Of a DNA stretch of 64,000 nucleotides, positions 2,688 to 64,000 are shown piece by piece. Numbering within the stretch: the first letter of the stretch is position 1; each line of letters starts with the position of its first letter. The stretch is from a virus. The DNA lies in the IMG/VR virus record IMGVR_UViG_3300035698_011651, positions 1-64,000 of that record. One strand, given 5' to 3'. The translations under genes were made by a program, and so were the position numbers. Below the pieces are notes generated by a model that was not told the origin of the DNA, did no database searches, and was given only the letters and a program-made list of their open reading frames with translations.

Positions 2688-3018
2688 CGTCTTGTGCCTC
2701 CGCTGGGTCTTCAAGAAAGAACTCGCCCCAGACTAATAGTACCCGCCAGCTCTTAATACCAGGATCATAAGTCTCGAGCTGTTTAGATACGTAACCTTTA
2801 CTCCGGGAACAAAGATTCAAAATATGTTGTAACTTCTTCGCATCATCAGAGATAGACATATCTAACTGATCGACATGCATATCCACTACTGTAACCGGCT
2901 TCTTCTTCTCCGGATCGTCATGCTTCAGATTCGGTACACCATTACGTGTCCTATAAGGAATACCATCAATACCTGGAAATACCTGTTGACCAAGAACTCC
3001 CTCTTCTTGCTCATGCAT
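2659..3018 (-). CDS. Unknown 119-residue protein (full copy of the gene cut at right edge)
   Basis: Start at 3018 with AAGGAGGAGG upstream. Its part from 2749 on is the mirror of 63731..64000; the rest (2659..2748) is single copy in this window. N-terminal half polar and Lys-rich, C-terminal half with a WRVLLVWGEFF strand and an acidic end. Overlaps the following gene by 29 bases. No family recognised. Confidence 0.65.
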   Translation of the reverse strand: MHEQEEGVLGQQVFPGIDGIPYRTRNGVPNLKHDDPEKKKPVTVVDMHVDQLDMSISDDAKKLQHILNLCSRSKGYVSKQLETYDPGIKSWRVLLVWGEFFLEDPAEAQDDAGHRRIYH

Positions 3019-3388
3019 AAAGATCCTCCTCCTTCTGGGCTTCCTGCTTACGTTTAAACAACTTACGCCAATTGCGTTGCTCACTACGCTGCGTAATACG
3101 CTTAGCCTGCCTCTTGTACTCAGAGATAAGCTCATTACGCTTCATTGCCTCAACATCCGTAGGCGTTACATCATTCATCATAGAATGCGCCTTACCAGTG
3201 TATATACCGCCAAGCATGGGAACACCTAAGCCCAATAACAGCCCATACGAACCCAAACTCTTGACACCACGTAATGCCTCAGCAGCAATACCACCCTCTG
3301 CTAACTTGCGGAATGTCGCTGGAGTGTGCCCAAGCTCGGCAACCTTTGTGTAATATCCAACCCGGAATGCATCTCGTCTATCCATCAT
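3011..3388 (-). CDS. Small hydrophobic-segment protein, left copy
   Basis: Mirror of 63361..63738: one Gly/Leu-rich segment, basic helical tail. Confidence 0.6.
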   Translation of the reverse strand: MMDRRDAFRVGYYTKVAELGHTPATFRKLAEGGIAAEALRGVKSLGSYGLLLGLGVPMLGGIYTGKAHSMMNDVTPTDVEAMKRNELISEYKRQAKRITQRSEQRNWRKLFKRKQEAQKEEDLYA

Positions 3389-4146
3389 ATCACTCCTGCT
3401 CCACGTAGTAAGCCGGCAACAGCTCCAATCCTTGATAAAGTAGACTGAGCCTGTGGCCTCAAACCAAATACCGCTCCCATAACTTTGCTGCCCATAGCAG
3501 CAGCGCCATAACCTAACCCAGCCCCAAGCATTCCCCCAAACAACTTACGGCCTGGATTACTAAGCAGCCCTGAGTCCTGACCATGAGTGGCCCGGCTCAT
3601 GTAACCCAGAGTACGTACCTTCTCGCTAACACTCATAGCTGGATCGGCATATATAGTACCTTGCGCCTGCGCAATACCTATAGGTGGCATGTTGCCAGAT
3701 GGTAACGATGGCAGAGCGCCAAAACCACCCTCCTTCTCCTGCGTAGTAGTAACTTGGGCTTTAACAGCAGGAGCCGCGGGGGCCTTGGTGAACGGATAAG
3801 CATCTCCAGTTGTACTGTATAACGGCTCCTTATGCTTCCGCGCTGAGCTGATAGCAGGCCAGGCAGCTAAGCCACCAAGCAATGCCCCGCCCAAGCCAAG
3901 ACCAATACGTAACCGCCTTGGGTCAAACCTATTGGGGAATAAAGCGTTTAATAGTGGGGCAGCAACCATAGACCCCATACCTGCTCCCAATGCAGACTGA
4001 CCAATAGCCCCTGGCAGTACTCCAGTAGGAATACCCTTAGGCCAGAAGCCTCTCTTAAAACCAGTTGCCTGGAAATACTTATTAAGCAGATTTATCATCC
4101 CAGCTGGTTTAGCCTGAGCCTTTGGTTGTACGACGTCAGCAGACAC
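3385..4146 (-). CDS. Gly-rich hydrophobic virion-type protein, left copy
   Basis: Mirror of 62603..63364; GTG start, 253 residues. Confidence 0.62.
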   Translation of the reverse strand: MSADVVQPKAQAKPAGMINLLNKYFQATGFKRGFWPKGIPTGVLPGAIGQSALGAGMGSMVAAPLLNALFPNRFDPRRLRIGLGLGGALLGGLAAWPAISSARKHKEPLYSTTGDAYPFTKAPAAPAVKAQVTTTQEKEGGFGALPSLPSGNMPPIGIAQAQGTIYADPAMSVSEKVRTLGYMSRATHGQDSGLLSNPGRKLFGGMLGAGLGYGAAAMGSKVMGAVFGLRPQAQSTLSRIGAVAGLLRGAGVI

Positions 4147-4168
4147 TATATAACCTCCGTATACATGA

Positions 4169-4750
4169 TCAACGCTTTGCAGCTGGAACTACAGGGGCTT
4201 TCTTTTTCTTGGGACTTGCTGCGCCAATAGCGCCACCGGCCGCGCCAGCTGCCGTAGCCGCACCAGCTGCAATAGCTGGGGCCACGGGCTTAGCTTTTGG
4301 CTTACTAACTGCTGTGGGCGAAACTGCAGAGGCTGCCAAGGGTGACAGACCTCTCAAGGCAGCCAATAATGGTGATGTCACTGAATTAGCTGCCCCCATT
4401 ACGCCTTCAGCAACAGGCCTCTTAGCTGCAGGCTTCTTAGCTGCAGGCGCGGGCGCGGGCGCAGGCGCTGGTTTAGTTACTTTAGCTGCTGGAGGAGTAC
4501 CCCCGCCCGTGATAGTCATTGGACTAAACTTGGGGGGCTTAGAAGAAGTACCAGTCGGCCCACTCATTAAATGTCTAGCACCCAAAGCAGCTGGTATACT
4601 CATAGCTGTAGTGGCCGCTGCAGTAGGGGCTGTTAGCCTTACCAACGGATTCTTACGGATCTTACGGGACCCTCGGCTCATCATACGGAGGATATCACCA
4701 ATGCCTGACTTCTTGTATATACACCCACTCCTAGATTTACTGGTAGTCAT
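4169..4750 (-). CDS. Ala/Pro/Lys-rich basic protein, left copy
   Basis: Mirror of 61999..62580, including the PAPAPAPA and AAKKPAAKRP stretches. Confidence 0.62.
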   Translation of the reverse strand: MTTSKSRSGCIYKKSGIGDILRMMSRGSRKIRKNPLVRLTAPTAAATTAMSIPAALGARHLMSGPTGTSSKPPKFSPMTITGGGTPPAAKVTKPAPAPAPAPAAKKPAAKRPVAEGVMGAANSVTSPLLAALRGLSPLAASAVSPTAVSKPKAKPVAPAIAAGAATAAGAAGGAIGAASPKKKKAPVVPAAKR

Positions 4751-4817
4751 GACGCCTCCTACAAGGTTATTGCCTTCATAAGCTGTTCAAGCTGCTTGAA
4801 GACTTAAAAGATTGCAA

Positions 4818-5186
4818 TCAAGAAGATGAACTACTTGAGCTTTCAGATGACTCACTGCTTTCTGACGACTCACTGCTTTCTGACGACTCCGGCTGCAATG
4901 ACGATTCACTGCTCTCAGACGACTCCGATGAATTTATTGAAGAAGATGACTCCAATGAACTTACTGAAGAAGACTCTATCGGTTGTATGTCATCAGGCCC
5001 TGTAGCCCAGGCCGCGCGGCCACGCCTAATAGTTCCACGATTAGGATCGCCAGGGGTGCACTCACGCCACTCAGCCGCTCTATCCGCCGACTTATTGTTA
5101 ACATAGGCGTTACGGCCAGCCGGAACAACGTTCTTTACGTCAGTCCCAACAAGACCCCACTTTGAATACTTTCCTTTGTCAGCCAT
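4818..5186 (-). CDS. Small protein with poly-Ser/Glu tail, left copy
   Basis: Mirror of 61563..61931. Confidence 0.65.
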   Translation of the reverse strand: MADKGKYSKWGLVGTDVKNVVPAGRNAYVNNKSADRAAEWRECTPGDPNRGTIRRGRAAWATGPDDIQPIESSSVSSLESSSSINSSESSESSESSLQPESSESSESSESSESSESSSSSSS

Positions 5187-5228
5187 TGTAAACTCCTTAT
5201 CTGTAAATCAATAAAATAGATTAATATA

Positions 5229-5864
5229 TTAGAACCCGCCAGAGGCGCCACTACAACCTCCGCCAGCAATAGGTGGCTTAGGTGCAGGTTTAGCTACAGG
5301 AGCCGGCTTCCTCTTGCCACCTAAAGTAGATGCATAATAGCCGCCGCCAGCAATAGGTGGCTTAGGTGCAGGTTTAGCTACAGGAGCCGGCTTCTTCTTG
5401 CCACCTAAAGTAGATGCATAATAGCCGCCGCCAGCCAATAATGGAAGTAAAAGGCTGCTAAGAGACATACCACCGCCGCCCCCGCGGGAACGATCTCCGC
5501 CGCCGCCGCCAAATAGTGAAGAAAGCAAAGATCCACCAACGCCGGTTCCGGTACCTACCAACAGGGCCCGCTGCCACGCTGGCATACTGCTGAAAGTTTT
5601 GCTTATATCACCCCACCAATCAGTCTTTTTGGCCTGCGCAGGGGCTAGCTGTCTGGCCGTAGCGGGAACTTGAGGCTGAGGAACCGCAGCGGGAACTTGA
5701 GGCTGAGAAACCGCAGCGGGAACTCGGGGCTGCACGCCAGGTGAGACAGTTCCAGGAAGCTGAACTCCTCCAATTTGGTTGAGGGCTACGGGTGGGGCCT
5801 TTGCCACCGGGACTGGCTCAGCTGATAGTTTAGTCATATTTTCCCAAGCTTCTTTTGCTTCCAT
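5229..5864 (-). CDS. Gly/Pro-rich repeat protein, left copy
   Basis: Mirror of 60885..61520; its 84-bp repeats fall at 5268..5435 and its 27-bp repeats at 5670..5723. Confidence 0.65.
   Translation of the reverse strand: MEAKEAWENMTKLSAEPVPVAKAPPVALNQIGGVQLPGTVSPGVQPRVPAAVSQPQVPAAVPQPQVPATARQLAPAQAKKTDWWGDISKTFSSMPAWQRALLVGTGTGVGGSLLSSLFGGGGGDRSRGGGGGMSLSSLLLPLLAGGGYYASTLGGKKKPAPVAKPAPKPPIAGGGYYASTLGGKRKPAPVAKPAPKPPIAGGGCSGASGGF
5268..5435 (-). repeat. Two 84-bp tandem repeats, left copy
   Basis: Mirror of 61314..61481. The single-codon difference between units is the same in both arms. Confidence 0.95.
5670..5723 (-). repeat. Two 27-bp tandem repeats, left copy
   Basis: Mirror of 61026..61079. 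Confidence 0.9.
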
Positions 5865-5875
5865 GGTATTCTCCT

Positions 5876-7183
5876 TTATGCGTCATCCCAATCGGCGATA
5901 CCGCCAATACGCTGCAGTACCCGCAAGCGTTCAACGGGGGCGGCAAGCCCGCCAATCATTGTGTATACTACAGGGCGCGGGTTATTACCTGCGTATATCC
6001 CTCTATGCACGGCGCTGCCAGAACTTAGCATTCTACCTAACATAGAGAAACCATCGTCCAGCGCATCCTGCTTTACACTCCTCAAAACGTCCTTATTAGC
6101 TACAAGGACACAGCCAGCAACCGACCCACTAGAAAGATCAAGACCACCTACCAGCACGTTCCTTTTAAGATTATCTCTTATGGCTACGCCCATGTCTTCC
6201 CGGGCGTCCCACTTTGCCATAGGTGTTGCGCCGAAGACCAGTAAACCAGACTGAAGAATAGTCTCAAGATCGGCTTTATCAAACGAAGTGTACTCAGAGT
6301 GCCTAGCTGACACAACATTGATAAGATGGAAGATTGAACAAATGGTCTGATTTGAACGGGTCCAAAACTCTTCCACACTTAAATCAGGGTACAGTTTACT
6401 GATACGCTGGTTATCTATTACAATGAGTGGGCTGATCTTATCTGGAAGCATAGAATACAGTTTAGTGAACGTATTAAATGCATTGTAATGCGCATGCTTA
6501 CCGTCAGATTCCTTCGGTAAAGCCAGTATAACTCCAACCTTAGGGTCGCCGCCGTGCTTCCTCAGTTCCAGTTTATCCATAAACTCGCCGCAGATATCAA
6601 CCAGCTCTGCAGCACTACCAGACCCTGTACCGCCACCAGCCGTGGCAGTTATGAGGATTCGATCAAAATCAGTGCCAAACTTTCTGCGCATGATATCATG
6701 TATATCTTCATGATGCTGCTTCGCAGCCTTAAATCCGTCTTCCAGCTTACCGCCAGCTCCGGACGTACCTATTATTAACTTGTTCTCTTCAGGCAGCTGC
6801 AAGGGCTTTATATCTGTCTGCGCTGTATTAACAGCCACGACGCGCCGATAACCCATATTCCAGAACTGGTGGGCAAGCCTTCCGCCGCCCTGCCCAGAAC
6901 CAAGTATAGCCCAATTAAAGGCAACTGGTTTACCTATTTCATCCTCCACTTTCTCTTTCACCTCTTGCGGTGGTAACGGAACATCAGACACATCAAGTAG
7001 ATCCAGTACCTCTGGCTCAGCAGGAACTTCTACAACTGGCGCTGCAGGTGGCTCTTGTGATACCGGCTGTGCTACAGGTTTCTGTTCTTCTGGCATTGGT
7101 TTATCCTTTCTCCTCCGGCCGGCGTATTTGTTACCCGGCGCTTTACTACGATCATGAACTAAAAATGATTTTATCTCTGGCAT
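5876..7183 (-). CDS. Tubulin/FtsZ-family GTPase, left copy
   Basis: Mirror of 59566..60873; T1 GSGQGGG, T4 GGGTGSG and T7-like FDKAD loops all intact. Alternative start at 7096. Confidence 0.88.
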   Translation of the reverse strand: MPEIKSFLVHDRSKAPGNKYAGRRRKDKPMPEEQKPVAQPVSQEPPAAPVVEVPAEPEVLDLLDVSDVPLPPQEVKEKVEDEIGKPVAFNWAILGSGQGGGRLAHQFWNMGYRRVVAVNTAQTDIKPLQLPEENKLIIGTSGAGGKLEDGFKAAKQHHEDIHDIMRRKFGTDFDRILITATAGGGTGSGSAAELVDICGEFMDKLELRKHGGDPKVGVILALPKESDGKHAHYNAFNTFTKLYSMLPDKISPLIVIDNQRISKLYPDLSVEEFWTRSNQTICSIFHLINVVSARHSEYTSFDKADLETILQSGLLVFGATPMAKWDAREDMGVAIRDNLKRNVLVGGLDLSSGSVAGCVLVANKDVLRSVKQDALDDGFSMLGRMLSSGSAVHRGIYAGNNPRPVVYTMIGGLAAPVERLRVLQRIGGIADWDDA

Positions 7184-7193
7184 AATCTCTATT

Positions 7194-8960
7194 TTAAAAC
7201 ATACTTTTTAATTTACTATGTATAGTTTGTATATTTTCAAATGGTTGCTTCCATGGGAGCATGGTATTACCTATGGATTTAAGCCCCTGTAACTTCCAAT
7301 TCTGCTCAGCTCCAGGAGATGGCGCCTGCCCACTCAATACGCGTTGATACGTCTCCGGCTGTGTAGAGTACTGCTTCTTAGCATTAGCAAGCCACGCCTG
7401 AGGTGTAACACCAGCCTTCTGCCAGTTAACAAGATTCATCCAATTAGGCCTGCCAGATGTGGTTCCAGGATTCTTACGCTTAGCATATGCTGGCACCCTA
7501 TTAGGGTGGGAATATCTGTAACCAGACTGCTGTTCTGCTATATCAGCAGTGCCTTCAGCCCTACCCTGAGCAGCATTAGCAAGGTCCAGCGCATTAGTAG
7601 AGCGACCTATAGTTTTACTAAGCGTACTAGGCGCTGTAGTAAGGGCGGAGAGTGCTGCTAATGGGTGCCGTCCGGCTCTTAAAGCTGTGGCCAGAGAGTT
7701 TGGCTCTCTATCGGTAGCTTCGGTAAAGGCTCTGGCTGGAGCAAAGTGAGTAGCTTCTGCTACATAAGGTGCCGAGCCTAAATTCTCATACCCATGCACA
7801 GGGCCGGCCTTATTATAAAGATCAACAGCCCTGCCGGTAGCCCCAATACGCTTACCAATCTCCCCTGCCAGACTAAATCGGGGGGTAGCAAACTCTAACC
7901 CACCAACCCCAGTCTGGATTGCATCATCCACGCTGGATATACCTGGAAGATGCTCAGATAAAGTTCTGCTGTGTGCCCCTGATGGGTCTGACAAAGCTGT
8001 CTGGGCTACTTCTTTTTGCCTGTCAATAAGTCCTGCCTTAGAGCCTGCTCCCCGCCCCATGAGGGTTCTACGCCCGGCAGGGCTTATCATACCTAGACGT
8101 TTAAGCATCTGTATATCTGATCCAGCTTGCTGCGCTGCAGGCTGGCTGCCTACGTAATCAAGTGCTCCCTCTGCGAGAGCTTCCACCGGTAACGCCGCCC
8201 CGCCAATGGCATTTACTATAGCAGGTGGTGCTTTAAATAGGTGCTTAGCTATAATCCCTGATACCTCAGGGGCGAAGTTCAACCCCATGAGCCCGATTCC
8301 TTTATTCCGGTTTAATCCAATATTGCCTGCTTCAATATCCTTATCTATACCCGTTCTCTCGGCTGCAAGCTGATTATACCTATGTAGGTTGCGATAATCC
8401 GAAGTAGTCATGCCGTGTGCGTCTGCAGGCGCTGCCGTAGGTTCGGCTGCGGGCACTGCCGTAGGTTCGACTTGTGGTTGAGCCTGTACAGGTGCATCGC
8501 CCTGTTGAAGCTGTTCTGGAGACGGCTGCTGTACCTGAACTTGTGGAGTCTGAGTAGTAGAGCCTGGGCTCCGGCCTGTAGAGGAGGAGCCGCCTACAGA
8601 ACCTGAAGCCCCGGCAAATAACTTTGATGCCCAGTCCCTTACTTTAGGTGAAGATGCCCCACCAAGGAGGGCGCCAACTAATGCGCCTATAACTCCTCCA
8701 CGACCCCCCTTTAATACTGTTCCTAAACCTCCACCAACAAGTGATGAAAGAATTAGGCGTATCCATTCGTCTCTGCCCATCTCGGCAGCTTTGACCCTCT
8801 CACGCCTATTACGTATATGGCAACCCAACCCACTGCTGCGGCCGATATCTCCAACTCCACGGCGTGGACGCTGACGGTTAGTGTTTGCTTTACGCCCATG
8901 TATAGGCTCACTCCAGCTCGCAGTTAGATCCTTCGTTAGGTGTGATATGTTGTGCGGCAC
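7194..8960 (-). CDS. Large Gly/Ala-rich virion-type protein, left copy
   Basis: Mirror of 57789..59555; GTG start at 8960 behind GGAGG. Confidence 0.65.
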   Translation of the reverse strand: MPHNISHLTKDLTASWSEPIHGRKANTNRQRPRRGVGDIGRSSGLGCHIRNRRERVKAAEMGRDEWIRLILSSLVGGGLGTVLKGGRGGVIGALVGALLGGASSPKVRDWASKLFAGASGSVGGSSSTGRSPGSTTQTPQVQVQQPSPEQLQQGDAPVQAQPQVEPTAVPAAEPTAAPADAHGMTTSDYRNLHRYNQLAAERTGIDKDIEAGNIGLNRNKGIGLMGLNFAPEVSGIIAKHLFKAPPAIVNAIGGAALPVEALAEGALDYVGSQPAAQQAGSDIQMLKRLGMISPAGRRTLMGRGAGSKAGLIDRQKEVAQTALSDPSGAHSRTLSEHLPGISSVDDAIQTGVGGLEFATPRFSLAGEIGKRIGATGRAVDLYNKAGPVHGYENLGSAPYVAEATHFAPARAFTEATDREPNSLATALRAGRHPLAALSALTTAPSTLSKTIGRSTNALDLANAAQGRAEGTADIAEQQSGYRYSHPNRVPAYAKRKNPGTTSGRPNWMNLVNWQKAGVTPQAWLANAKKQYSTQPETYQRVLSGQAPSPGAEQNWKLQGLKSIGNTMLPWKQPFENIQTIHSKLKSMF

Positions 8961-9029
8961 AGGGGCCTCCATAAGCATAACAAGATCAATCCAAAGACAT
9001 TATGCGGTTGTAGCAGTCCTTGGTCAAGT

Positions 9030-10886
9030 CTAACCTGGGGATCCCCCCTGTAATATCTGATATCCACCAATCGACTGAGCCTGCTGCCTAATTGATTCCA
9101 TCTTTGATTTAACCAAGGCATGTAGCGCCTCATTAGACTTCTTCAATTGCAGCATCTGACTCTTACGCTGCTCATATGGCATTTGTAGCAACTGGTTAGC
9201 AATCTGTTCAGCCTGTACAAGCATATCTTGCGGAGTATTGTTACCTCCACCCCCACCCATAGGCGCTCCACCCATAGGCGCTCCGCCCATTGCTGGGTCA
9301 CCCATAGGCATTCCACCCCCCATAGGCATACCTGCGCCGCCAGGCGGCATAGCGCCCGCTGCACCCCGCTCCATAGTGGCGATACGCTCTTCCATTTGTT
9401 GCTGTTCAGACATCTCTCTCTGTGCATCACGTTCAAGTTCGGAAGTTTCCTTCTGCTCGTCAAAGATTCGCCTAGTCTCCTCGGCAACATCAATGCCGAG
9501 TGGGGCGTAGGCTGTCTGCTTACTAATCTGATTGCCGGCAGCCAGCTGCATGAGAATATTCTTCTTCTCAAGATCATCAGCAAGAGTGACTGGCTGCAAC
9601 TGTACACGCGGCGGCTCCCAATTCTTGATACGAGCAGTTTGCTGTACAAACCAGGTAAGCCAGCCATTAAACCCAGATATTAGCTGAGGCCACGTCTGTT
9701 GAAATAACCTAAGAGCTGTAGGGGCAGCTTGTAAGGTCATAGTCCCTTTATAGAAATCTATAGGGACACCCTGGGCGTTCAACATCTCATCAAGAGCGTT
9801 GTTAATCATCTCAGAGGGAACCATAGTGGCTCCTTCACCTCCAAGAGAGCTGTAATTTATAGGGAATGGAAGGAAATGCCATGTTGCAGGATCTTTCCTG
9901 TGCTCTGCCACCATGTTCATAACCTTACTATTATACGCCCCAAGATTCTGATGCAGAATGGGGTCAGCTTCACGACTACTGCCAGCAGACGGTGTTAATA
10001 CCCTGAATGGTACAATATAGTCAAGAGCCAAAGCCTCATTATATCTCTTCAACACCTGGATATAATAAGCCTGCTTGAAATTACTTACCAGCCTTGGTAT
10101 ACCCCACCCCATTACCCTTATACCGGATAAAGTCTCTTCCTTAAAATGATGAAACATCTTGTCATTAAACCTGAACAATTTATCATCCCTGACCGCCTCT
10201 ATGAACTCCCAATGGGTTGTTCTAAGGTAGAACGGATTGCCGTCCCTTATCTCCCTCTTGAAGCTCTCAGGAATACGCCACCTATACTCTACGTCATGGG
10301 ATAGAGGGTTATACTGAATGATTATAGAGTGGGGATCCCACCTTATAATGCGTAGGGTCTCATCTTCTGCAGCCCTGCGATCGCGGCGTTCAAAGATACC
10401 CTTATGCTTACACTTAGGGCAGGTACCTGTAAACTGATAATTCTTACCAAACGTATAGTCAACCTTCTGGATTGGCCGTTCAAGACCGCACTTCTTACAT
10501 ATCAAGAACCGATCGAATGGTACATAGAGGCTGCTGAAGACATTTCCATAACACATGAAGTCGTCACCCAAGTTAGCCAGCAGATCAATAACATTAACTG
10601 ACTCATTAAGGTACTCTCTCCACTTCTTAGCCTCTTGATCCGATACATCCTTAATCTCAATTTGAGTTAAGAAGTACCTGACTGTACGCTCGCAAGCTGT
10701 TCTAAAGGTGCCGTTATTAAGCCAGATATGCTCACACCACTGCAACACATTACGCAGCGTCCGCGGCATCTCCAGCGATGCATAATCGCACCAAGGATCC
10801 GGGAAGTATCCCTTACCAGCTTGGTTGATGTAACCCATACCTGTTATTTTGGAAGTGTTATACACTTCATTGGTGTCACACTGCAT
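9030..10886 (-). CDS. Portal-like protein with zinc ribbon, left copy
   Basis: Mirror of 55863..57719; four ribbon cysteines and the Met/Gly tail repeats are identical. Confidence 0.68.
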   Translation of the reverse strand: MQCDTNEVYNTSKITGMGYINQAGKGYFPDPWCDYASLEMPRTLRNVLQWCEHIWLNNGTFRTACERTVRYFLTQIEIKDVSDQEAKKWREYLNESVNVIDLLANLGDDFMCYGNVFSSLYVPFDRFLICKKCGLERPIQKVDYTFGKNYQFTGTCPKCKHKGIFERRDRRAAEDETLRIIRWDPHSIIIQYNPLSHDVEYRWRIPESFKREIRDGNPFYLRTTHWEFIEAVRDDKLFRFNDKMFHHFKEETLSGIRVMGWGIPRLVSNFKQAYYIQVLKRYNEALALDYIVPFRVLTPSAGSSREADPILHQNLGAYNSKVMNMVAEHRKDPATWHFLPFPINYSSLGGEGATMVPSEMINNALDEMLNAQGVPIDFYKGTMTLQAAPTALRLFQQTWPQLISGFNGWLTWFVQQTARIKNWEPPRVQLQPVTLADDLEKKNILMQLAAGNQISKQTAYAPLGIDVAEETRRIFDEQKETSELERDAQREMSEQQQMEERIATMERGAAGAMPPGGAGMPMGGGMPMGDPAMGGAPMGGAPMGGGGGNNTPQDMLVQAEQIANQLLQMPYEQRKSQMLQLKKSNEALHALVKSKMESIRQQAQSIGGYQILQGGSPG

Positions 10887-10887
10887 T

Positions 10888-11103
10888 CTAAATCCTCGTG
10901 TGTAATGGGGTTAGCGTATCCAGTTGCTGGTCCATAGACTTAATCGCCTCATCAGCTTTCTTCTCAGATATTCCCTGCTTGTCGGACGTAATATAATGAG
11001 TCATGCATACAGCTTCCCCAGCCTTGTTGATAGTCTCAGACTTTCTGCCGCAGTAAGCGCAAGGAGTTACACCCTCTACCACTGAATTATTCTTGGTCGC
11101 CAT
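10888..11103 (-). CDS. 71-residue zinc-finger-like protein, left copy
   Basis: Mirror of 55646..55861 (C15, C18, C33, H36). Confidence 0.62.
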   Translation of the reverse strand: MATKNNSVVEGVTPCAYCGRKSETINKAGEAVCMTHYITSDKQGISEKKADEAIKSMDQQLDTLTPLHTRI

Positions 11104-11821
11104 CTGCTATATCCTTTATCAAAAGAACGATAAGCTCTAGATTGTACGAACTCAGGGAGAACGCCATACCTGTAGAAAGCACATGATGAACGTCAGCTTC
11201 ACTACCTACAGTAACTTCAACCGGCTCGGGCATAATAGATGGCTCAAACTTTGCACCCTTTTTATACCTAGAATCCCATACCAGTACAAGGAACATATCT
11301 TCCCTGACAATGTTATGATAGTAAGTAGTTATCTTACCAAAGGGTAGGCCAAAGTTGAAGACTATGCGCTTATCGGGCTCAGCAACAACAGCGGCAGTGC
11401 CAGGCTCCGTAGCTTTAATTCGCTCCGCCAGCTCCGCTCGAGCTCTCATAAGCTCAAGCTGCTTTACCAAAGATGCCATTGAATGTTCTTCAATAGACTT
11501 CGCTGCCGGCAGAGTAGTCTTCTCTACCTCACAGGCGGGCTCCACCTCCGTGTCCTGCACGCCTTTAATAATAGTTTCAGCAGACTCTCCAGGTATTTTT
11601 ACTGGCTTACCTGCCTTTAAATCGTTGGCATCAAAGACATAAGAAGATGGGAAGTCAGGATCCACCACAACAGGTACTGTGTCGTTAGGGGTGAATACCG
11701 GAGACCCGCCACCCATTGTGGCCTCTGGAATCTGAGTACCAAACTCATTTACAGAATACTCGGTGCGCTTCTCTTTCATAATACCTGACCTACTGTCCTT
11801 CTTAAATTCTGTCTCTCCCAT
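11087..11821 (-). CDS. Unknown protein upstream of portal, left copy
   Basis: Mirror of 54928..55662. Confidence 0.62.
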   Translation of the reverse strand: MGETEFKKDSRSGIMKEKRTEYSVNEFGTQIPEATMGGGSPVFTPNDTVPVVVDPDFPSSYVFDANDLKAGKPVKIPGESAETIIKGVQDTEVEPACEVEKTTLPAAKSIEEHSMASLVKQLELMRARAELAERIKATEPGTAAVVAEPDKRIVFNFGLPFGKITTYYHNIVREDMFLVLVWDSRYKKGAKFEPSIMPEPVEVTVGSEADVHHVLSTGMAFSLSSYNLELIVLLIKDIADGDQE

Positions 11822-11847
11822 GATACTCCTCCTGTGGGCTGATAGCT

Positions 11848-11874
11848 AAAAAGAAGCCTATTTACATAGGCTTC
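11848..11874 (-). terminator. Rho-independent terminator, left copy
   Basis: Mirror of 54875..54901. Confidence 0.88.
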
Positions 11875-11890
11875 CTCTGAAATAATCTCC

Positions 11891-12823: not shown

Positions 12824-12841
12824 AATACTCCTCCTGTAAAT

Positions 12842-53819: not shown

Positions 53820-53841
53820 AAAATACTCTATAATGCGTTAT

Positions 53842-53907: not shown

Positions 53908-53925
53908 ATTTACAGGAGGAGTATT

Positions 53926-54858: not shown

Positions 54859-54874
54859 GGAGATTATTTCAGAG

Positions 54875-54901
54875 GAAGCCTATGTAAATAGGCTTCTTTT
54901 T
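54875..54901 (+). terminator. Rho-independent terminator
   Basis: GAAGCCTAT and ATAGGCTTC pair around GTAA (two further A-T/G-T pairs extend the stem) and TTTTT follows. It lies 16 bases after the stop at 54858. The next gene starts 26 bases later without an obvious promoter, so termination may be partial. Confidence 0.88.
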
Positions 54902-54927
54902 AGCTATCAGCCCACAGGAGGAGTATC

Positions 54928-55662
54928 ATGGGAGAGACAGAATTTAAGAAGGACAGTAGGTCAGGTATTATGAAAGAGAAGCGCACCGAGTATTCTGTAA
55001 ATGAGTTTGGTACTCAGATTCCAGAGGCCACAATGGGTGGCGGGTCTCCGGTATTCACCCCTAACGACACAGTACCTGTTGTGGTGGATCCTGACTTCCC
55101 ATCTTCTTATGTCTTTGATGCCAACGATTTAAAGGCAGGTAAGCCAGTAAAAATACCTGGAGAGTCTGCTGAAACTATTATTAAAGGCGTGCAGGACACG
55201 GAGGTGGAGCCCGCCTGTGAGGTAGAGAAGACTACTCTGCCGGCAGCGAAGTCTATTGAAGAACATTCAATGGCATCTTTGGTAAAGCAGCTTGAGCTTA
55301 TGAGAGCTCGAGCGGAGCTGGCGGAGCGAATTAAAGCTACGGAGCCTGGCACTGCCGCTGTTGTTGCTGAGCCCGATAAGCGCATAGTCTTCAACTTTGG
55401 CCTACCCTTTGGTAAGATAACTACTTACTATCATAACATTGTCAGGGAAGATATGTTCCTTGTACTGGTATGGGATTCTAGGTATAAAAAGGGTGCAAAG
55501 TTTGAGCCATCTATTATGCCCGAGCCGGTTGAAGTTACTGTAGGTAGTGAAGCTGACGTTCATCATGTGCTTTCTACAGGTATGGCGTTCTCCCTGAGTT
55601 CGTACAATCTAGAGCTTATCGTTCTTTTGATAAAGGATATAGCAGATGGCGACCAAGAATAA
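54928..55662 (+). CDS. Unknown protein upstream of the portal gene
   Basis: 244 residues, ATG preceded by AGGAGGAG. The N-terminal 110 residues are polar and probably disordered, then a short Glu/Arg coiled-coil-like helix (about 112-135), then a beta-rich C-terminal domain. Position just before the portal gene suggests a structural or assembly role, which is inference only. Overlaps the next gene by 17 bases. Confidence 0.62.
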   Translation: MGETEFKKDSRSGIMKEKRTEYSVNEFGTQIPEATMGGGSPVFTPNDTVPVVVDPDFPSSYVFDANDLKAGKPVKIPGESAETIIKGVQDTEVEPACEVEKTTLPAAKSIEEHSMASLVKQLELMRARAELAERIKATEPGTAAVVAEPDKRIVFNFGLPFGKITTYYHNIVREDMFLVLVWDSRYKKGAKFEPSIMPEPVEVTVGSEADVHHVLSTGMAFSLSSYNLELIVLLIKDIADGDQE

Positions 55663-55861
55663 TTCAGTGGTAGAGGGTGTAACTCCTTGCGCTTACTGCG
55701 GCAGAAAGTCTGAGACTATCAACAAGGCTGGGGAAGCTGTATGCATGACTCATTATATTACGTCCGACAAGCAGGGAATATCTGAGAAGAAAGCTGATGA
55801 GGCGATTAAGTCTATGGACCAGCAACTGGATACGCTAACCCCATTACACACGAGGATTTAG
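55646..55861 (+). CDS. 71-residue zinc-finger-like protein
   Basis: C15/C18 (CAYCG) and C33/H36 (CMTH) form a CCCH zinc site of treble-clef or ribbon type, followed by a helical C-terminus. It overlaps the previous gene and ends one base before the portal start, so it is co-translated with structural genes. Confidence 0.62.
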   Translation: MATKNNSVVEGVTPCAYCGRKSETINKAGEAVCMTHYITSDKQGISEKKADEAIKSMDQQLDTLTPLHTRI

Positions 55862-55862
55862 A

Positions 55863-57719
55863 ATGCAGTGTGACACCAATGAAGTGTATAACACTTCCAA
55901 AATAACAGGTATGGGTTACATCAACCAAGCTGGTAAGGGATACTTCCCGGATCCTTGGTGCGATTATGCATCGCTGGAGATGCCGCGGACGCTGCGTAAT
56001 GTGTTGCAGTGGTGTGAGCATATCTGGCTTAATAACGGCACCTTTAGAACAGCTTGCGAGCGTACAGTCAGGTACTTCTTAACTCAAATTGAGATTAAGG
56101 ATGTATCGGATCAAGAGGCTAAGAAGTGGAGAGAGTACCTTAATGAGTCAGTTAATGTTATTGATCTGCTGGCTAACTTGGGTGACGACTTCATGTGTTA
56201 TGGAAATGTCTTCAGCAGCCTCTATGTACCATTCGATCGGTTCTTGATATGTAAGAAGTGCGGTCTTGAACGGCCAATCCAGAAGGTTGACTATACGTTT
56301 GGTAAGAATTATCAGTTTACAGGTACCTGCCCTAAGTGTAAGCATAAGGGTATCTTTGAACGCCGCGATCGCAGGGCTGCAGAAGATGAGACCCTACGCA
56401 TTATAAGGTGGGATCCCCACTCTATAATCATTCAGTATAACCCTCTATCCCATGACGTAGAGTATAGGTGGCGTATTCCTGAGAGCTTCAAGAGGGAGAT
56501 AAGGGACGGCAATCCGTTCTACCTTAGAACAACCCATTGGGAGTTCATAGAGGCGGTCAGGGATGATAAATTGTTCAGGTTTAATGACAAGATGTTTCAT
56601 CATTTTAAGGAAGAGACTTTATCCGGTATAAGGGTAATGGGGTGGGGTATACCAAGGCTGGTAAGTAATTTCAAGCAGGCTTATTATATCCAGGTGTTGA
56701 AGAGATATAATGAGGCTTTGGCTCTTGACTATATTGTACCATTCAGGGTATTAACACCGTCTGCTGGCAGTAGTCGTGAAGCTGACCCCATTCTGCATCA
56801 GAATCTTGGGGCGTATAATAGTAAGGTTATGAACATGGTGGCAGAGCACAGGAAAGATCCTGCAACATGGCATTTCCTTCCATTCCCTATAAATTACAGC
56901 TCTCTTGGAGGTGAAGGAGCCACTATGGTTCCCTCTGAGATGATTAACAACGCTCTTGATGAGATGTTGAACGCCCAGGGTGTCCCTATAGATTTCTATA
57001 AAGGGACTATGACCTTACAAGCTGCCCCTACAGCTCTTAGGTTATTTCAACAGACGTGGCCTCAGCTAATATCTGGGTTTAATGGCTGGCTTACCTGGTT
57101 TGTACAGCAAACTGCTCGTATCAAGAATTGGGAGCCGCCGCGTGTACAGTTGCAGCCAGTCACTCTTGCTGATGATCTTGAGAAGAAGAATATTCTCATG
57201 CAGCTGGCTGCCGGCAATCAGATTAGTAAGCAGACAGCCTACGCCCCACTCGGCATTGATGTTGCCGAGGAGACTAGGCGAATCTTTGACGAGCAGAAGG
57301 AAACTTCCGAACTTGAACGTGATGCACAGAGAGAGATGTCTGAACAGCAACAAATGGAAGAGCGTATCGCCACTATGGAGCGGGGTGCAGCGGGCGCTAT
57401 GCCGCCTGGCGGCGCAGGTATGCCTATGGGGGGTGGAATGCCTATGGGTGACCCAGCAATGGGCGGAGCGCCTATGGGTGGAGCGCCTATGGGTGGGGGT
57501 GGAGGTAACAATACTCCGCAAGATATGCTTGTACAGGCTGAACAGATTGCTAACCAGTTGCTACAAATGCCATATGAGCAGCGTAAGAGTCAGATGCTGC
57601 AATTGAAGAAGTCTAATGAGGCGCTACATGCCTTGGTTAAATCAAAGATGGAATCAATTAGGCAGCAGGCTCAGTCGATTGGTGGATATCAGATATTACA
57701 GGGGGGATCCCCAGGTTAG
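55863..57719 (+). CDS. Portal-like protein with embedded zinc ribbon
   Basis: 618 residues. The layout fits a phage portal: an N-terminal helical part with WLNNGTFRTACERTVRYFL (crown/wing start), a YGNVFSSLYVPF strand, a long stem region (about 290-470), and a Gln/Glu-rich tail. C130, C133, C156 and C159 form a zinc ribbon inserted in the wing. Residues about 510-550 are Met/Gly/Pro repeats (MGGAPMGG type). Portals form the dodecameric DNA gateway of the capsid. The call is from overall pattern, not from a specific motif. Neighbours are other structural-looking genes. Confidence 0.68.
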   Translation: MQCDTNEVYNTSKITGMGYINQAGKGYFPDPWCDYASLEMPRTLRNVLQWCEHIWLNNGTFRTACERTVRYFLTQIEIKDVSDQEAKKWREYLNESVNVIDLLANLGDDFMCYGNVFSSLYVPFDRFLICKKCGLERPIQKVDYTFGKNYQFTGTCPKCKHKGIFERRDRRAAEDETLRIIRWDPHSIIIQYNPLSHDVEYRWRIPESFKREIRDGNPFYLRTTHWEFIEAVRDDKLFRFNDKMFHHFKEETLSGIRVMGWGIPRLVSNFKQAYYIQVLKRYNEALALDYIVPFRVLTPSAGSSREADPILHQNLGAYNSKVMNMVAEHRKDPATWHFLPFPINYSSLGGEGATMVPSEMINNALDEMLNAQGVPIDFYKGTMTLQAAPTALRLFQQTWPQLISGFNGWLTWFVQQTARIKNWEPPRVQLQPVTLADDLEKKNILMQLAAGNQISKQTAYAPLGIDVAEETRRIFDEQKETSELERDAQREMSEQQQMEERIATMERGAAGAMPPGGAGMPMGGGMPMGDPAMGGAPMGGAPMGGGGGNNTPQDMLVQAEQIANQLLQMPYEQRKSQMLQLKKSNEALHALVKSKMESIRQQAQSIGGYQILQGGSPG

Positions 57720-57788
57720 ACTTGACCAAGGACTGCTACAACCGCATAATGTCTTTGGATTGATCTTGTTATGCTTATGGAGGCCCCT

Positions 57789-59555
57789 GTGCCGCACAAC
57801 ATATCACACCTAACGAAGGATCTAACTGCGAGCTGGAGTGAGCCTATACATGGGCGTAAAGCAAACACTAACCGTCAGCGTCCACGCCGTGGAGTTGGAG
57901 ATATCGGCCGCAGCAGTGGGTTGGGTTGCCATATACGTAATAGGCGTGAGAGGGTCAAAGCTGCCGAGATGGGCAGAGACGAATGGATACGCCTAATTCT
58001 TTCATCACTTGTTGGTGGAGGTTTAGGAACAGTATTAAAGGGGGGTCGTGGAGGAGTTATAGGCGCATTAGTTGGCGCCCTCCTTGGTGGGGCATCTTCA
58101 CCTAAAGTAAGGGACTGGGCATCAAAGTTATTTGCCGGGGCTTCAGGTTCTGTAGGCGGCTCCTCCTCTACAGGCCGGAGCCCAGGCTCTACTACTCAGA
58201 CTCCACAAGTTCAGGTACAGCAGCCGTCTCCAGAACAGCTTCAACAGGGCGATGCACCTGTACAGGCTCAACCACAAGTCGAACCTACGGCAGTGCCCGC
58301 AGCCGAACCTACGGCAGCGCCTGCAGACGCACACGGCATGACTACTTCGGATTATCGCAACCTACATAGGTATAATCAGCTTGCAGCCGAGAGAACGGGT
58401 ATAGATAAGGATATTGAAGCAGGCAATATTGGATTAAACCGGAATAAAGGAATCGGGCTCATGGGGTTGAACTTCGCCCCTGAGGTATCAGGGATTATAG
58501 CTAAGCACCTATTTAAAGCACCACCTGCTATAGTAAATGCCATTGGCGGGGCGGCGTTACCGGTGGAAGCTCTCGCAGAGGGAGCACTTGATTACGTAGG
58601 CAGCCAGCCTGCAGCGCAGCAAGCTGGATCAGATATACAGATGCTTAAACGTCTAGGTATGATAAGCCCTGCCGGGCGTAGAACCCTCATGGGGCGGGGA
58701 GCAGGCTCTAAGGCAGGACTTATTGACAGGCAAAAAGAAGTAGCCCAGACAGCTTTGTCAGACCCATCAGGGGCACACAGCAGAACTTTATCTGAGCATC
58801 TTCCAGGTATATCCAGCGTGGATGATGCAATCCAGACTGGGGTTGGTGGGTTAGAGTTTGCTACCCCCCGATTTAGTCTGGCAGGGGAGATTGGTAAGCG
58901 TATTGGGGCTACCGGCAGGGCTGTTGATCTTTATAATAAGGCCGGCCCTGTGCATGGGTATGAGAATTTAGGCTCGGCACCTTATGTAGCAGAAGCTACT
59001 CACTTTGCTCCAGCCAGAGCCTTTACCGAAGCTACCGATAGAGAGCCAAACTCTCTGGCCACAGCTTTAAGAGCCGGACGGCACCCATTAGCAGCACTCT
59101 CCGCCCTTACTACAGCGCCTAGTACGCTTAGTAAAACTATAGGTCGCTCTACTAATGCGCTGGACCTTGCTAATGCTGCTCAGGGTAGGGCTGAAGGCAC
59201 TGCTGATATAGCAGAACAGCAGTCTGGTTACAGATATTCCCACCCTAATAGGGTGCCAGCATATGCTAAGCGTAAGAATCCTGGAACCACATCTGGCAGG
59301 CCTAATTGGATGAATCTTGTTAACTGGCAGAAGGCTGGTGTTACACCTCAGGCGTGGCTTGCTAATGCTAAGAAGCAGTACTCTACACAGCCGGAGACGT
59401 ATCAACGCGTATTGAGTGGGCAGGCGCCATCTCCTGGAGCTGAGCAGAATTGGAAGTTACAGGGGCTTAAATCCATAGGTAATACCATGCTCCCATGGAA
59501 GCAACCATTTGAAAATATACAAACTATACATAGTAAATTAAAAAGTATGTTTTAA
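57789..59555 (+). CDS. Large Gly/Ala-rich protein, probably virion-associated
   Basis: 588 residues from GTG 57789, chosen because GGAGG at 57779..57783 is ideally spaced; two in-frame ATGs upstream lack a site. An Arg-rich N-terminus (about 22-60) is followed by a hydrophobic Gly-rich segment (about 70-95, VGGGLGTVL and GALVGALLGG), a Gln/Pro/Ala linker (about 130-185), and a helical remainder. The pattern resembles internal or membrane-penetrating virion proteins. No enzyme motif was seen. Confidence 0.65.
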   Translation: MPHNISHLTKDLTASWSEPIHGRKANTNRQRPRRGVGDIGRSSGLGCHIRNRRERVKAAEMGRDEWIRLILSSLVGGGLGTVLKGGRGGVIGALVGALLGGASSPKVRDWASKLFAGASGSVGGSSSTGRSPGSTTQTPQVQVQQPSPEQLQQGDAPVQAQPQVEPTAVPAAEPTAAPADAHGMTTSDYRNLHRYNQLAAERTGIDKDIEAGNIGLNRNKGIGLMGLNFAPEVSGIIAKHLFKAPPAIVNAIGGAALPVEALAEGALDYVGSQPAAQQAGSDIQMLKRLGMISPAGRRTLMGRGAGSKAGLIDRQKEVAQTALSDPSGAHSRTLSEHLPGISSVDDAIQTGVGGLEFATPRFSLAGEIGKRIGATGRAVDLYNKAGPVHGYENLGSAPYVAEATHFAPARAFTEATDREPNSLATALRAGRHPLAALSALTTAPSTLSKTIGRSTNALDLANAAQGRAEGTADIAEQQSGYRYSHPNRVPAYAKRKNPGTTSGRPNWMNLVNWQKAGVTPQAWLANAKKQYSTQPETYQRVLSGQAPSPGAEQNWKLQGLKSIGNTMLPWKQPFENIQTIHSKLKSMF

Positions 59556-59565
59556 AATAGAGATT

Positions 59566-60873
59566 ATGCCAGAGATAAAATCATTTTTAGTTCATGATCG
59601 TAGTAAAGCGCCGGGTAACAAATACGCCGGCCGGAGGAGAAAGGATAAACCAATGCCAGAAGAACAGAAACCTGTAGCACAGCCGGTATCACAAGAGCCA
59701 CCTGCAGCGCCAGTTGTAGAAGTTCCTGCTGAGCCAGAGGTACTGGATCTACTTGATGTGTCTGATGTTCCGTTACCACCGCAAGAGGTGAAAGAGAAAG
59801 TGGAGGATGAAATAGGTAAACCAGTTGCCTTTAATTGGGCTATACTTGGTTCTGGGCAGGGCGGCGGAAGGCTTGCCCACCAGTTCTGGAATATGGGTTA
59901 TCGGCGCGTCGTGGCTGTTAATACAGCGCAGACAGATATAAAGCCCTTGCAGCTGCCTGAAGAGAACAAGTTAATAATAGGTACGTCCGGAGCTGGCGGT
60001 AAGCTGGAAGACGGATTTAAGGCTGCGAAGCAGCATCATGAAGATATACATGATATCATGCGCAGAAAGTTTGGCACTGATTTTGATCGAATCCTCATAA
60101 CTGCCACGGCTGGTGGCGGTACAGGGTCTGGTAGTGCTGCAGAGCTGGTTGATATCTGCGGCGAGTTTATGGATAAACTGGAACTGAGGAAGCACGGCGG
60201 CGACCCTAAGGTTGGAGTTATACTGGCTTTACCGAAGGAATCTGACGGTAAGCATGCGCATTACAATGCATTTAATACGTTCACTAAACTGTATTCTATG
60301 CTTCCAGATAAGATCAGCCCACTCATTGTAATAGATAACCAGCGTATCAGTAAACTGTACCCTGATTTAAGTGTGGAAGAGTTTTGGACCCGTTCAAATC
60401 AGACCATTTGTTCAATCTTCCATCTTATCAATGTTGTGTCAGCTAGGCACTCTGAGTACACTTCGTTTGATAAAGCCGATCTTGAGACTATTCTTCAGTC
60501 TGGTTTACTGGTCTTCGGCGCAACACCTATGGCAAAGTGGGACGCCCGGGAAGACATGGGCGTAGCCATAAGAGATAATCTTAAAAGGAACGTGCTGGTA
60601 GGTGGTCTTGATCTTTCTAGTGGGTCGGTTGCTGGCTGTGTCCTTGTAGCTAATAAGGACGTTTTGAGGAGTGTAAAGCAGGATGCGCTGGACGATGGTT
60701 TCTCTATGTTAGGTAGAATGCTAAGTTCTGGCAGCGCCGTGCATAGAGGGATATACGCAGGTAATAACCCGCGCCCTGTAGTATACACAATGATTGGCGG
60801 GCTTGCCGCCCCCGTTGAACGCTTGCGGGTACTGCAGCGTATTGGCGGTATCGCCGATTGGGATGACGCATAA
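59566..60873 (+). CDS. Tubulin/FtsZ-family GTPase
   Basis: 435 residues. After a disordered, Pro/Glu-rich leader (1-85) comes a complete tubulin/FtsZ core: GSGQGGG at 95-101 (T1), VNTAQTD at 118-124, GAGG at 142-145 (T3), the tubulin signature GGGTGSG at 183-189 (T4), and FDKADLETIL at 301-310, equivalent to the FtsZ T7 loop DFADVxxVM with its catalytic acids. So it should bind GTP, assemble and hydrolyse. It is longer than PhuZ and lies among structural genes. A second start, ATG 59653, has a stronger AAAGGA site. Confidence 0.88.
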   Translation: MPEIKSFLVHDRSKAPGNKYAGRRRKDKPMPEEQKPVAQPVSQEPPAAPVVEVPAEPEVLDLLDVSDVPLPPQEVKEKVEDEIGKPVAFNWAILGSGQGGGRLAHQFWNMGYRRVVAVNTAQTDIKPLQLPEENKLIIGTSGAGGKLEDGFKAAKQHHEDIHDIMRRKFGTDFDRILITATAGGGTGSGSAAELVDICGEFMDKLELRKHGGDPKVGVILALPKESDGKHAHYNAFNTFTKLYSMLPDKISPLIVIDNQRISKLYPDLSVEEFWTRSNQTICSIFHLINVVSARHSEYTSFDKADLETILQSGLLVFGATPMAKWDAREDMGVAIRDNLKRNVLVGGLDLSSGSVAGCVLVANKDVLRSVKQDALDDGFSMLGRMLSSGSAVHRGIYAGNNPRPVVYTMIGGLAAPVERLRVLQRIGGIADWDDA

Positions 60874-60884
60874 AGGAGAATACC

Positions 60885-61520
60885 ATGGAAGCAAAAGAAG
60901 CTTGGGAAAATATGACTAAACTATCAGCTGAGCCAGTCCCGGTGGCAAAGGCCCCACCCGTAGCCCTCAACCAAATTGGAGGAGTTCAGCTTCCTGGAAC
61001 TGTCTCACCTGGCGTGCAGCCCCGAGTTCCCGCTGCGGTTTCTCAGCCTCAAGTTCCCGCTGCGGTTCCTCAGCCTCAAGTTCCCGCTACGGCCAGACAG
61101 CTAGCCCCTGCGCAGGCCAAAAAGACTGATTGGTGGGGTGATATAAGCAAAACTTTCAGCAGTATGCCAGCGTGGCAGCGGGCCCTGTTGGTAGGTACCG
61201 GAACCGGCGTTGGTGGATCTTTGCTTTCTTCACTATTTGGCGGCGGCGGCGGAGATCGTTCCCGCGGGGGCGGCGGTGGTATGTCTCTTAGCAGCCTTTT
61301 ACTTCCATTATTGGCTGGCGGCGGCTATTATGCATCTACTTTAGGTGGCAAGAAGAAGCCGGCTCCTGTAGCTAAACCTGCACCTAAGCCACCTATTGCT
61401 GGCGGCGGCTATTATGCATCTACTTTAGGTGGCAAGAGGAAGCCGGCTCCTGTAGCTAAACCTGCACCTAAGCCACCTATTGCTGGCGGAGGTTGTAGTG
61501 GCGCCTCTGGCGGGTTCTAA
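60885..61520 (+). CDS. Gly/Pro-rich repeat protein, probably structural
   Basis: 211 residues. It contains VPAAVSQPQ-type 9-residue repeats (about 48-70), a Gly-rich hydrophobic segment (about 98-145), and two 28-residue repeats of the type GGGYYASTLGGK followed by PAPVAKPAPKPPI. No enzyme motif. The low complexity and location after the tubulin-like gene suggest a virion-associated or envelope-facing protein. Confidence 0.65.
   Translation: MEAKEAWENMTKLSAEPVPVAKAPPVALNQIGGVQLPGTVSPGVQPRVPAAVSQPQVPAAVPQPQVPATARQLAPAQAKKTDWWGDISKTFSSMPAWQRALLVGTGTGVGGSLLSSLFGGGGGDRSRGGGGGMSLSSLLLPLLAGGGYYASTLGGKKKPAPVAKPAPKPPIAGGGYYASTLGGKRKPAPVAKPAPKPPIAGGGCSGASGGF
61026..61079 (+). repeat. Two 27-bp tandem repeats in the Pro-rich region
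   Basis: Units at 61026..61052 and 61053..61079 differ only in one codon (TCT/CCT) and are followed by a partial third unit. They keep the reading frame. Confidence 0.9.
61314..61481 (+). repeat. Two 84-bp tandem repeats
   Basis: Units 61314..61397 and 61398..61481 differ at one codon (AAG/AGG) and encode the 28-residue repeat. A partial third copy begins at 61482. Near identity at DNA level means recent duplication or ongoing expansion. Confidence 0.95.
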
Positions 61521-61562
61521 TATATTAATCTATTTTATTGATTTACAGATAAGGAGTTTACA

Positions 61563-61931
61563 ATGGCTGACAAAGGAAAGTATTCAAAGTGGGGTCTTGT
61601 TGGGACTGACGTAAAGAACGTTGTTCCGGCTGGCCGTAACGCCTATGTTAACAATAAGTCGGCGGATAGAGCGGCTGAGTGGCGTGAGTGCACCCCTGGC
61701 GATCCTAATCGTGGAACTATTAGGCGTGGCCGCGCGGCCTGGGCTACAGGGCCTGATGACATACAACCGATAGAGTCTTCTTCAGTAAGTTCATTGGAGT
61801 CATCTTCTTCAATAAATTCATCGGAGTCGTCTGAGAGCAGTGAATCGTCATTGCAGCCGGAGTCGTCAGAAAGCAGTGAGTCGTCAGAAAGCAGTGAGTC
61901 ATCTGAAAGCTCAAGTAGTTCATCTTCTTGA
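61563..61931 (+). CDS. Small protein with poly-Ser/Glu tail
   Basis: 122 residues. The first 75 form a small basic domain (WGLVGTD, RRGRAAW), and the last 50 are almost only Ser and Glu in SSESSE repeats, ending in a Ser run. The tail is surely unstructured and negatively charged, possibly a flexible decoration on a virion protein. Function unknown. Confidence 0.65.
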   Translation: MADKGKYSKWGLVGTDVKNVVPAGRNAYVNNKSADRAAEWRECTPGDPNRGTIRRGRAAWATGPDDIQPIESSSVSSLESSSSINSSESSESSESSLQPESSESSESSESSESSESSSSSSS

Positions 61932-61998
61932 TTGCAATCTTTTAAGTCTTCAAGCAGCTTGAACAGCTTATGAAGGCAATAACCTTGTAGGAGGCGTC

Positions 61999-62580
61999 AT
62001 GACTACCAGTAAATCTAGGAGTGGGTGTATATACAAGAAGTCAGGCATTGGTGATATCCTCCGTATGATGAGCCGAGGGTCCCGTAAGATCCGTAAGAAT
62101 CCGTTGGTAAGGCTAACAGCCCCTACTGCAGCGGCCACTACAGCTATGAGTATACCAGCTGCTTTGGGTGCTAGACATTTAATGAGTGGGCCGACTGGTA
62201 CTTCTTCTAAGCCCCCCAAGTTTAGTCCAATGACTATCACGGGCGGGGGTACTCCTCCAGCAGCTAAAGTAACTAAACCAGCGCCTGCGCCCGCGCCCGC
62301 GCCTGCAGCTAAGAAGCCTGCAGCTAAGAGGCCTGTTGCTGAAGGCGTAATGGGGGCAGCTAATTCAGTGACATCACCATTATTGGCTGCCTTGAGAGGT
62401 CTGTCACCCTTGGCAGCCTCTGCAGTTTCGCCCACAGCAGTTAGTAAGCCAAAAGCTAAGCCCGTGGCCCCAGCTATTGCAGCTGGTGCGGCTACGGCAG
62501 CTGGCGCGGCCGGTGGCGCTATTGGCGCAGCAAGTCCCAAGAAAAAGAAAGCCCCTGTAGTTCCAGCTGCAAAGCGTTGA
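61999..62580 (+). CDS. Ala/Pro/Lys-rich basic protein
   Basis: 193 residues, ATG preceded by AGGAGG. It has a basic N-terminus (RGSRKIRKNP), then PAPAPAPA and AAKKPAAKRP repeats reminiscent of histone H1-like tails, an Ala-rich hydrophobic stretch (about 150-178), and a basic end. It could condense DNA or cross membranes. The codon-level AAKKPAAK pattern is low complexity, so no homology is claimed. Confidence 0.62.
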   Translation: MTTSKSRSGCIYKKSGIGDILRMMSRGSRKIRKNPLVRLTAPTAAATTAMSIPAALGARHLMSGPTGTSSKPPKFSPMTITGGGTPPAAKVTKPAPAPAPAPAAKKPAAKRPVAEGVMGAANSVTSPLLAALRGLSPLAASAVSPTAVSKPKAKPVAPAIAAGAATAAGAAGGAIGAASPKKKKAPVVPAAKR

Positions 62581-62602
62581 TCATGTATACGGAGGTTATA
62601 TA

Positions 62603-63364
62603 GTGTCTGCTGACGTCGTACAACCAAAGGCTCAGGCTAAACCAGCTGGGATGATAAATCTGCTTAATAAGTATTTCCAGGCAACTGGTTTTAAGAGAGG
62701 CTTCTGGCCTAAGGGTATTCCTACTGGAGTACTGCCAGGGGCTATTGGTCAGTCTGCATTGGGAGCAGGTATGGGGTCTATGGTTGCTGCCCCACTATTA
62801 AACGCTTTATTCCCCAATAGGTTTGACCCAAGGCGGTTACGTATTGGTCTTGGCTTGGGCGGGGCATTGCTTGGTGGCTTAGCTGCCTGGCCTGCTATCA
62901 GCTCAGCGCGGAAGCATAAGGAGCCGTTATACAGTACAACTGGAGATGCTTATCCGTTCACCAAGGCCCCCGCGGCTCCTGCTGTTAAAGCCCAAGTTAC
63001 TACTACGCAGGAGAAGGAGGGTGGTTTTGGCGCTCTGCCATCGTTACCATCTGGCAACATGCCACCTATAGGTATTGCGCAGGCGCAAGGTACTATATAT
63101 GCCGATCCAGCTATGAGTGTTAGCGAGAAGGTACGTACTCTGGGTTACATGAGCCGGGCCACTCATGGTCAGGACTCAGGGCTGCTTAGTAATCCAGGCC
63201 GTAAGTTGTTTGGGGGAATGCTTGGGGCTGGGTTAGGTTATGGCGCTGCTGCTATGGGCAGCAAAGTTATGGGAGCGGTATTTGGTTTGAGGCCACAGGC
63301 TCAGTCTACTTTATCAAGGATTGGAGCTGTTGCCGGCTTACTACGTGGAGCAGGAGTGATATGA
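62603..63364 (+). CDS. Gly-rich hydrophobic virion-type protein
   Basis: 253 residues from GTG with CGGAGG upstream. Gly/Ala-rich hydrophobic segments at about 45-68, 80-98 and 208-228 alternate with polar linkers, the composition seen in membrane-active virion proteins. It overlaps the next gene by 4 bases. Function unknown. Confidence 0.62.
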   Translation: MSADVVQPKAQAKPAGMINLLNKYFQATGFKRGFWPKGIPTGVLPGAIGQSALGAGMGSMVAAPLLNALFPNRFDPRRLRIGLGLGGALLGGLAAWPAISSARKHKEPLYSTTGDAYPFTKAPAAPAVKAQVTTTQEKEGGFGALPSLPSGNMPPIGIAQAQGTIYADPAMSVSEKVRTLGYMSRATHGQDSGLLSNPGRKLFGGMLGAGLGYGAAAMGSKVMGAVFGLRPQAQSTLSRIGAVAGLLRGAGVI

Positions 63365-63738
63365 TGGATAGACGAGATGCATTCCGGGTTGGATATTACA
63401 CAAAGGTTGCCGAGCTTGGGCACACTCCAGCGACATTCCGCAAGTTAGCAGAGGGTGGTATTGCTGCTGAGGCATTACGTGGTGTCAAGAGTTTGGGTTC
63501 GTATGGGCTGTTATTGGGCTTAGGTGTTCCCATGCTTGGCGGTATATACACTGGTAAGGCGCATTCTATGATGAATGATGTAACGCCTACGGATGTTGAG
63601 GCAATGAAGCGTAATGAGCTTATCTCTGAGTACAAGAGGCAGGCTAAGCGTATTACGCAGCGTAGTGAGCAACGCAATTGGCGTAAGTTGTTTAAACGTA
63701 AGCAGGAAGCCCAGAAGGAGGAGGATCTTTATGCATGA
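63361..63738 (+). CDS. Small protein with one hydrophobic segment and basic tail
   Basis: 125 residues, starting at one of two consecutive ATGs overlapping the previous stop. Residues about 46-66 are Gly/Leu-rich (LLLGLGVPMLGG), a likely membrane segment, and the last 50 are Lys/Arg/Glu-rich helix. Belongs to the same series of structural-looking genes. Confidence 0.6.
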   Translation: MMDRRDAFRVGYYTKVAELGHTPATFRKLAEGGIAAEALRGVKSLGSYGLLLGLGVPMLGGIYTGKAHSMMNDVTPTDVEAMKRNELISEYKRQAKRITQRSEQRNWRKLFKRKQEAQKEEDLYA

Positions 63739-64000
63739 GCAAGAAGAGGGAGTTCTTGGTCAACAGGTATTTCCAGGTATTGATGGTATTCCTTATAGGA
63801 CACGTAATGGTGTACCGAATCTGAAGCATGACGATCCGGAGAAGAAGAAGCCGGTTACAGTAGTGGATATGCATGTCGATCAGTTAGATATGTCTATCTC
63901 TGATGATGCGAAGAAGTTACAACATATTTTGAATCTTTGTTCCCGGAGTAAAGGTTACGTATCTAAACAGCTCGAGACTTATGATCCTGGTATTAAGAGC
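63731..64000 (+). CDS. Unknown protein, cut by window edge
   Basis: ATG 63731 follows AAGGAGGAGG and overlaps the previous gene by 8 bases. 90 codons lie in the window. The complete version is visible in the left arm at 2659..3018 (119 residues). Polar, with a DxxHxDQLD stretch; no recognised motif. Confidence 0.62.
   Translation, partial: MHEQEEGVLGQQVFPGIDGIPYRTRNGVPNLKHDDPEKKKPVTVVDMHVDQLDMSISDDAKKLQHILNLCSRSKGYVSKQLETYDPGIKS

Follow-up and report, generated by a model that had tools for sequence, protein, structure and literature searches.

Palindromic and repeated contigs have been described before in assembled sequence: exactly mirrored contigs were removed from single-cell assemblies as very likely assembly artefacts (PMC12755884), and CheckV reports IMG/VR contigs in which the same genome is repeated, attributed to assembly (PMC8116208). 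Among the rearrangements generated by multiple displacement amplification, inverted sequences made up more than 85% in one study, with inverted chimeras as the main type (PMC1855051), and amplification often produces artificial palindromes in long reads (PMC6218980). Here, we analyse a palindrome in a 64,000-nucleotide window of virus DNA, i.e. bases 1-64000 of the 66,748-bp IMG/VR record IMGVR_UViG_3300035698_011651, and propose that it is very probably a fold-back assembly artefact and not a biological feature. The single-cell contigs were likewise exactly mirrored, but belonged to cyanobacterial genomes, whereas the present contig is from a phage and is held in a public virus collection. 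The CheckV cases stem from the same type of collection and also hold their sequence about twice, but as repeated genome copies and not, as here, as a fragment joined head to head to one inverted copy of itself.

In phages of the N15 type, which possess hairpin telomeres, a closed end would appear in the sequence as a palindrome without spacer; in contrast to these, no protelomerase was found here, no terminus is common to the relatives and the tip is apparently coding. The one described isolate related to the phage, Arash, is a myovirus with a terminase (PMC10585845). Arash and the Vibrio phages D181, D148 and D69 (181-187 kb) have a homologous portal, distant at 26-32% identity, in long genomes that are not palindromic. 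The proximity of the genes for the portal and the RNA polymerase (RNAP) beta subunit, an Arash-like trait, is also found in the present record, with the portal homologous to that of Arash and beta to those of IMG/VR relatives; in Arash, the location of the beta gene beside the portal is known by annotation only.

Extent of the palindrome and the interrupted beta gene

Within the window, all 30,626 pairs of positions x and 66749-x match as complements without a single exception, in agreement with an earlier note on this DNA that had described a perfect palindrome of more than 61 kb with neither spacer nor indel. The start given there, position 2749, is merely the mirror of the window cut at 64000. 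A symmetric continuation past 64000, proposed as a check, is indeed present: the remaining 2,748 bases of the record mirror too, so that the palindrome spans 1-66748 and the record as a whole is identical to its reverse complement. The symmetry axis at 33374/33375 is the exact midpoint of the record, with zero spacer, as a fold-back assembly artefact would show, leaving 33,374 bases of unique sequence. A chance origin can be discounted because the next-longest perfect palindrome in the arm measures 14 bp; the corresponding maxima are 14-22 bp in the related records examined. No match of at least 12 bases within the last 80 bases ties the tip to the rest of the arm.

Both ends of the record interrupt the RNAP beta gene at the same point, after 273 residues, and such identical gene-internal ends on both sides are again what a fold-back artefact would leave. 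The gene also substantiates the multisubunit RNA polymerase-like gene of the earlier note, as the N-terminus of beta. In 16 related records beta is single-copy throughout, with a frame of mostly 1,471-2,388 codons, and only the record under study, among the related records compared, has it twice. Because the beta gene is cut here, and is whole and single-copy in relatives that reach 211 kb, the arm is, as judged from sequence comparison, a 33,374-bp fragment of a larger Arash-like phage genome, with position 1 an arbitrary cut. The whole genome of the phage probably measures about 180-210 kb.

Proposed formation of the exact palindrome by assembly

We propose that the palindrome formed as follows. 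The 33,374-bp phage fragment would end where coverage or the assembly graph stopped, and one or a few chimeric fold-back reads (an inverted chimera, snap-back synthesis or similar), originating from a library step that we infer, would connect this end with its own mirror image. To a k-mer assembler both strands are one path; it would then walk out along the arm and return along the same arm, yielding an exact palindrome of twice the arm length (2L), both ends of which stop at the same place.

This behaviour of the assembler was reproduced in a toy de Bruijn assembly, for which fold-back reads were added to random sequence. When the spacer was zero and coverage stopped at the join, a 3,000-base region gave one 6,000-base exact palindrome; no exact 2L palindrome was obtained when the spacer measured 1, 2, 8 or 40 bases, or when coverage continued normally beyond the join. 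In this toy case, the assembler itself selects fold-backs without spacer and forces identical arms of equal length. As these properties are produced from a single fold-back junction, exactness, zero spacer and equal arms are not evidence of biology; exactness is neutral between an artefact and a hairpin, which reverses the previous argument that perfection and the missing spacer suggest biology. As a very probable artefact, the palindrome says nothing about the architecture of the phage genome.

A variant of the same explanation places the fold-back in long reads, through a missed SMRTbell adapter or a template-complement read, and not in a chimera from amplification or the library; reads of this kind form palindromes with zero spacer. 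For amplified long reads, artificial palindromes are on record (PMC6218980). We regard this variant, which is part of the explanation above, as unlikely.

The axis and the competing explanations

Two frames on the same strand run open into the join, and the axis therefore probably cuts genes. One of them stays open for 31 codons from the axis, followed by a short overlap with the start of the first whole gene (Table 1), a spacing common among the genes of this arm; it probably represents the C-terminal end of a gene that the join interrupts. The other is the frame of the first whole gene itself, which starts 85 bases from the axis and is likewise open up to it. The codon usage of the 31-codon frame is typical of the phage: its score is equalled or exceeded by 70% of coding windows, whereas 0.6% of same-strand off-frame windows and 2.6% of antisense windows are free of stops and also reach it. 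A location of the axis within coding sequence thus has moderate statistical support, and no homologue; it is suggestive, rather than proof, that the axis cuts through genes of an operon instead of marking a terminus. An open reading frame call starting at 33415 was rejected as spurious, its first codons being derived from the mirrored copy.

Of the three origins previously considered, i.e. a hairpin end, a head-to-head concatemer and a fold-back artefact, the evidence favours the last and gives no positive support to the other two. If the phage genome were linear and N15-like, and sequencing had read through a covalently closed hairpin telomere at 33374, the assembly would contain a perfect palindrome with zero spacer; the genes are indeed oriented away from the tip, close to which a TATAAT is located. 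However, the two frames open into the axis and the record ends inside the beta gene, and no protelomerase (PF16684) was detected in the record, which is only a fragment, or in eight related records, while a positive-control genome was matched. Moreover, Arash, the known relative, is a tailed phage by morphology and possesses a terminase (PMC10585845). The longer related records end about 9, 24, 27, 30, 38, 61, 98, 132, 159 and 199 kb upstream of beta, i.e. at many positions without a shared terminus, although many of these records may be fragments, and none of them ends at the 32.6 kb that separate beta from the axis here. A search for the same tip in other contigs, as had been suggested, returned no exact 30-mer match in IMG/VR. 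We consider a hairpin telomere very unlikely. Still less probable is a linear genome, in a large Arash-like phage that has an RNA polymerase of its own, with a covalently closed hairpin end at the axis formed by an enzyme unlike known protelomerases.

A head-to-head replication concatemer, or a real inverted duplication in the phage population, would show the same mirrored order if the junction were frequent. Either would double beta and the portal, but beta is single in the relatives, including G013, G014, G015, G017, G018 and G020, in which 38-199 kb upstream of beta hold no second copy. The 33-kb arm, ending inside the beta gene, is moreover a cut-ended fragment and not a genome unit, and long palindromes without spacer are generally known to be unstable in cells; this origin is scarcely credible.

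Several observations weigh against a fold-back artefact. The chimeric junction is deduced from the assembled sequence, and a true covalently closed hairpin end would yield the same contig. The two axis-adjacent genes have no detectable relatives in the viral contigs, genome contigs, GenBank phages and related records searched, and 27596-28357 has no detectable relative in the records searched; consequently, no relative is shown to continue through a homologous tip. In addition, a -10-like TATAAT is located at a distance of 43-48 bp from the axis and could be accounted for by a promoter close to a real tip. As a promoter this motif is a weak candidate, since the same strand of the arm contains 20 copies of TATAAT.

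With the palindrome very probably a fold-back artefact, the 66.7-kb length and the doubled gene content of the record would be false, and one of its halves should be removed before genes are counted, completeness is estimated or claims on architecture are made. IMG/VR lists the record as linear without end repeats, though its ends are exact inverted copies, and further palindromic contigs may therefore hide in the collection. The palindrome is accordingly without biological importance, and matters for data hygiene.

Gene content of the arm

The genes of the arm are tightly packed on one strand, and at 30 of the 44 junctions neighbouring genes overlap or lie no more than 12 bp apart. The main features are listed in Table 1.

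Table 1. Positions of the arms, the axis and selected genes; numbering follows the record.
Feature	Positions	Strand	Remarks
Left arm	1..33374		sole unique sequence of the record; judged a fragment of a large tailed-phage genome; record = arm + its reverse complement
Right arm	33375..64000, on to 66748 in the record		exact reverse complement of left arm, no independent information
Axis	33374..33375		exact midpoint, no spacer; most likely a false join
Open frame into axis	33279..33374	-	IKERQELVDTLRPIYNRFKCRRFRGEIPDGE then TGA; overlaps start of next gene
First whole gene beside axis	32357..33289	-	310 aa, MANELIKQ..., no database relatives
RNAP beta subunit N-terminus	3..821	-	cut at residue 273 by record end; mirror at 65928-66746 of the record
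Tubulin/FtsZ-like GTPase	5876..7183	-	Pfam Tubulin, E 1.2e-15
Portal protein	9030..10886	-	40% identity to IMG/VR relatives; 26-32% to Salmonella phage Arash and Vibrio phages D181/D148/D69

The portal assignment is also given by a match to the PHROG portal family. For the tubulin/FtsZ-like GTPase, a copy of 43-44% identity is present in one related record of 190 kb (G002:90670-91788), and none was found in the 16 other related records searched. The arm further encodes a RuvC-like resolvase, an exonuclease, a glycosyltransferase and a radical SAM/SPASM protein, the last, a radical SAM protein with a SPASM domain, being located at 25076-26221 (- strand) of the phage fragment. No DNA-level similarity to phages was detected for 802-8800.

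A cluster at 19275-21895 (- strand) contains a glycosyltransferase that is heptosyltransferase-like according to Pfam (20277-21275), and two neighbours that resemble methyltransferases by eye, without a match to a named family; the cluster possibly has a role in surface or DNA modification. A 444-aa protein harbours a tandem repeat at 1780-1920 (EMPGEELAELEAEGATP, two copies), and the small protein encoded at 4818-5186 (- strand) terminates at its C-terminal end in a long serine/glutamate repeat (SSESSESSESS...).
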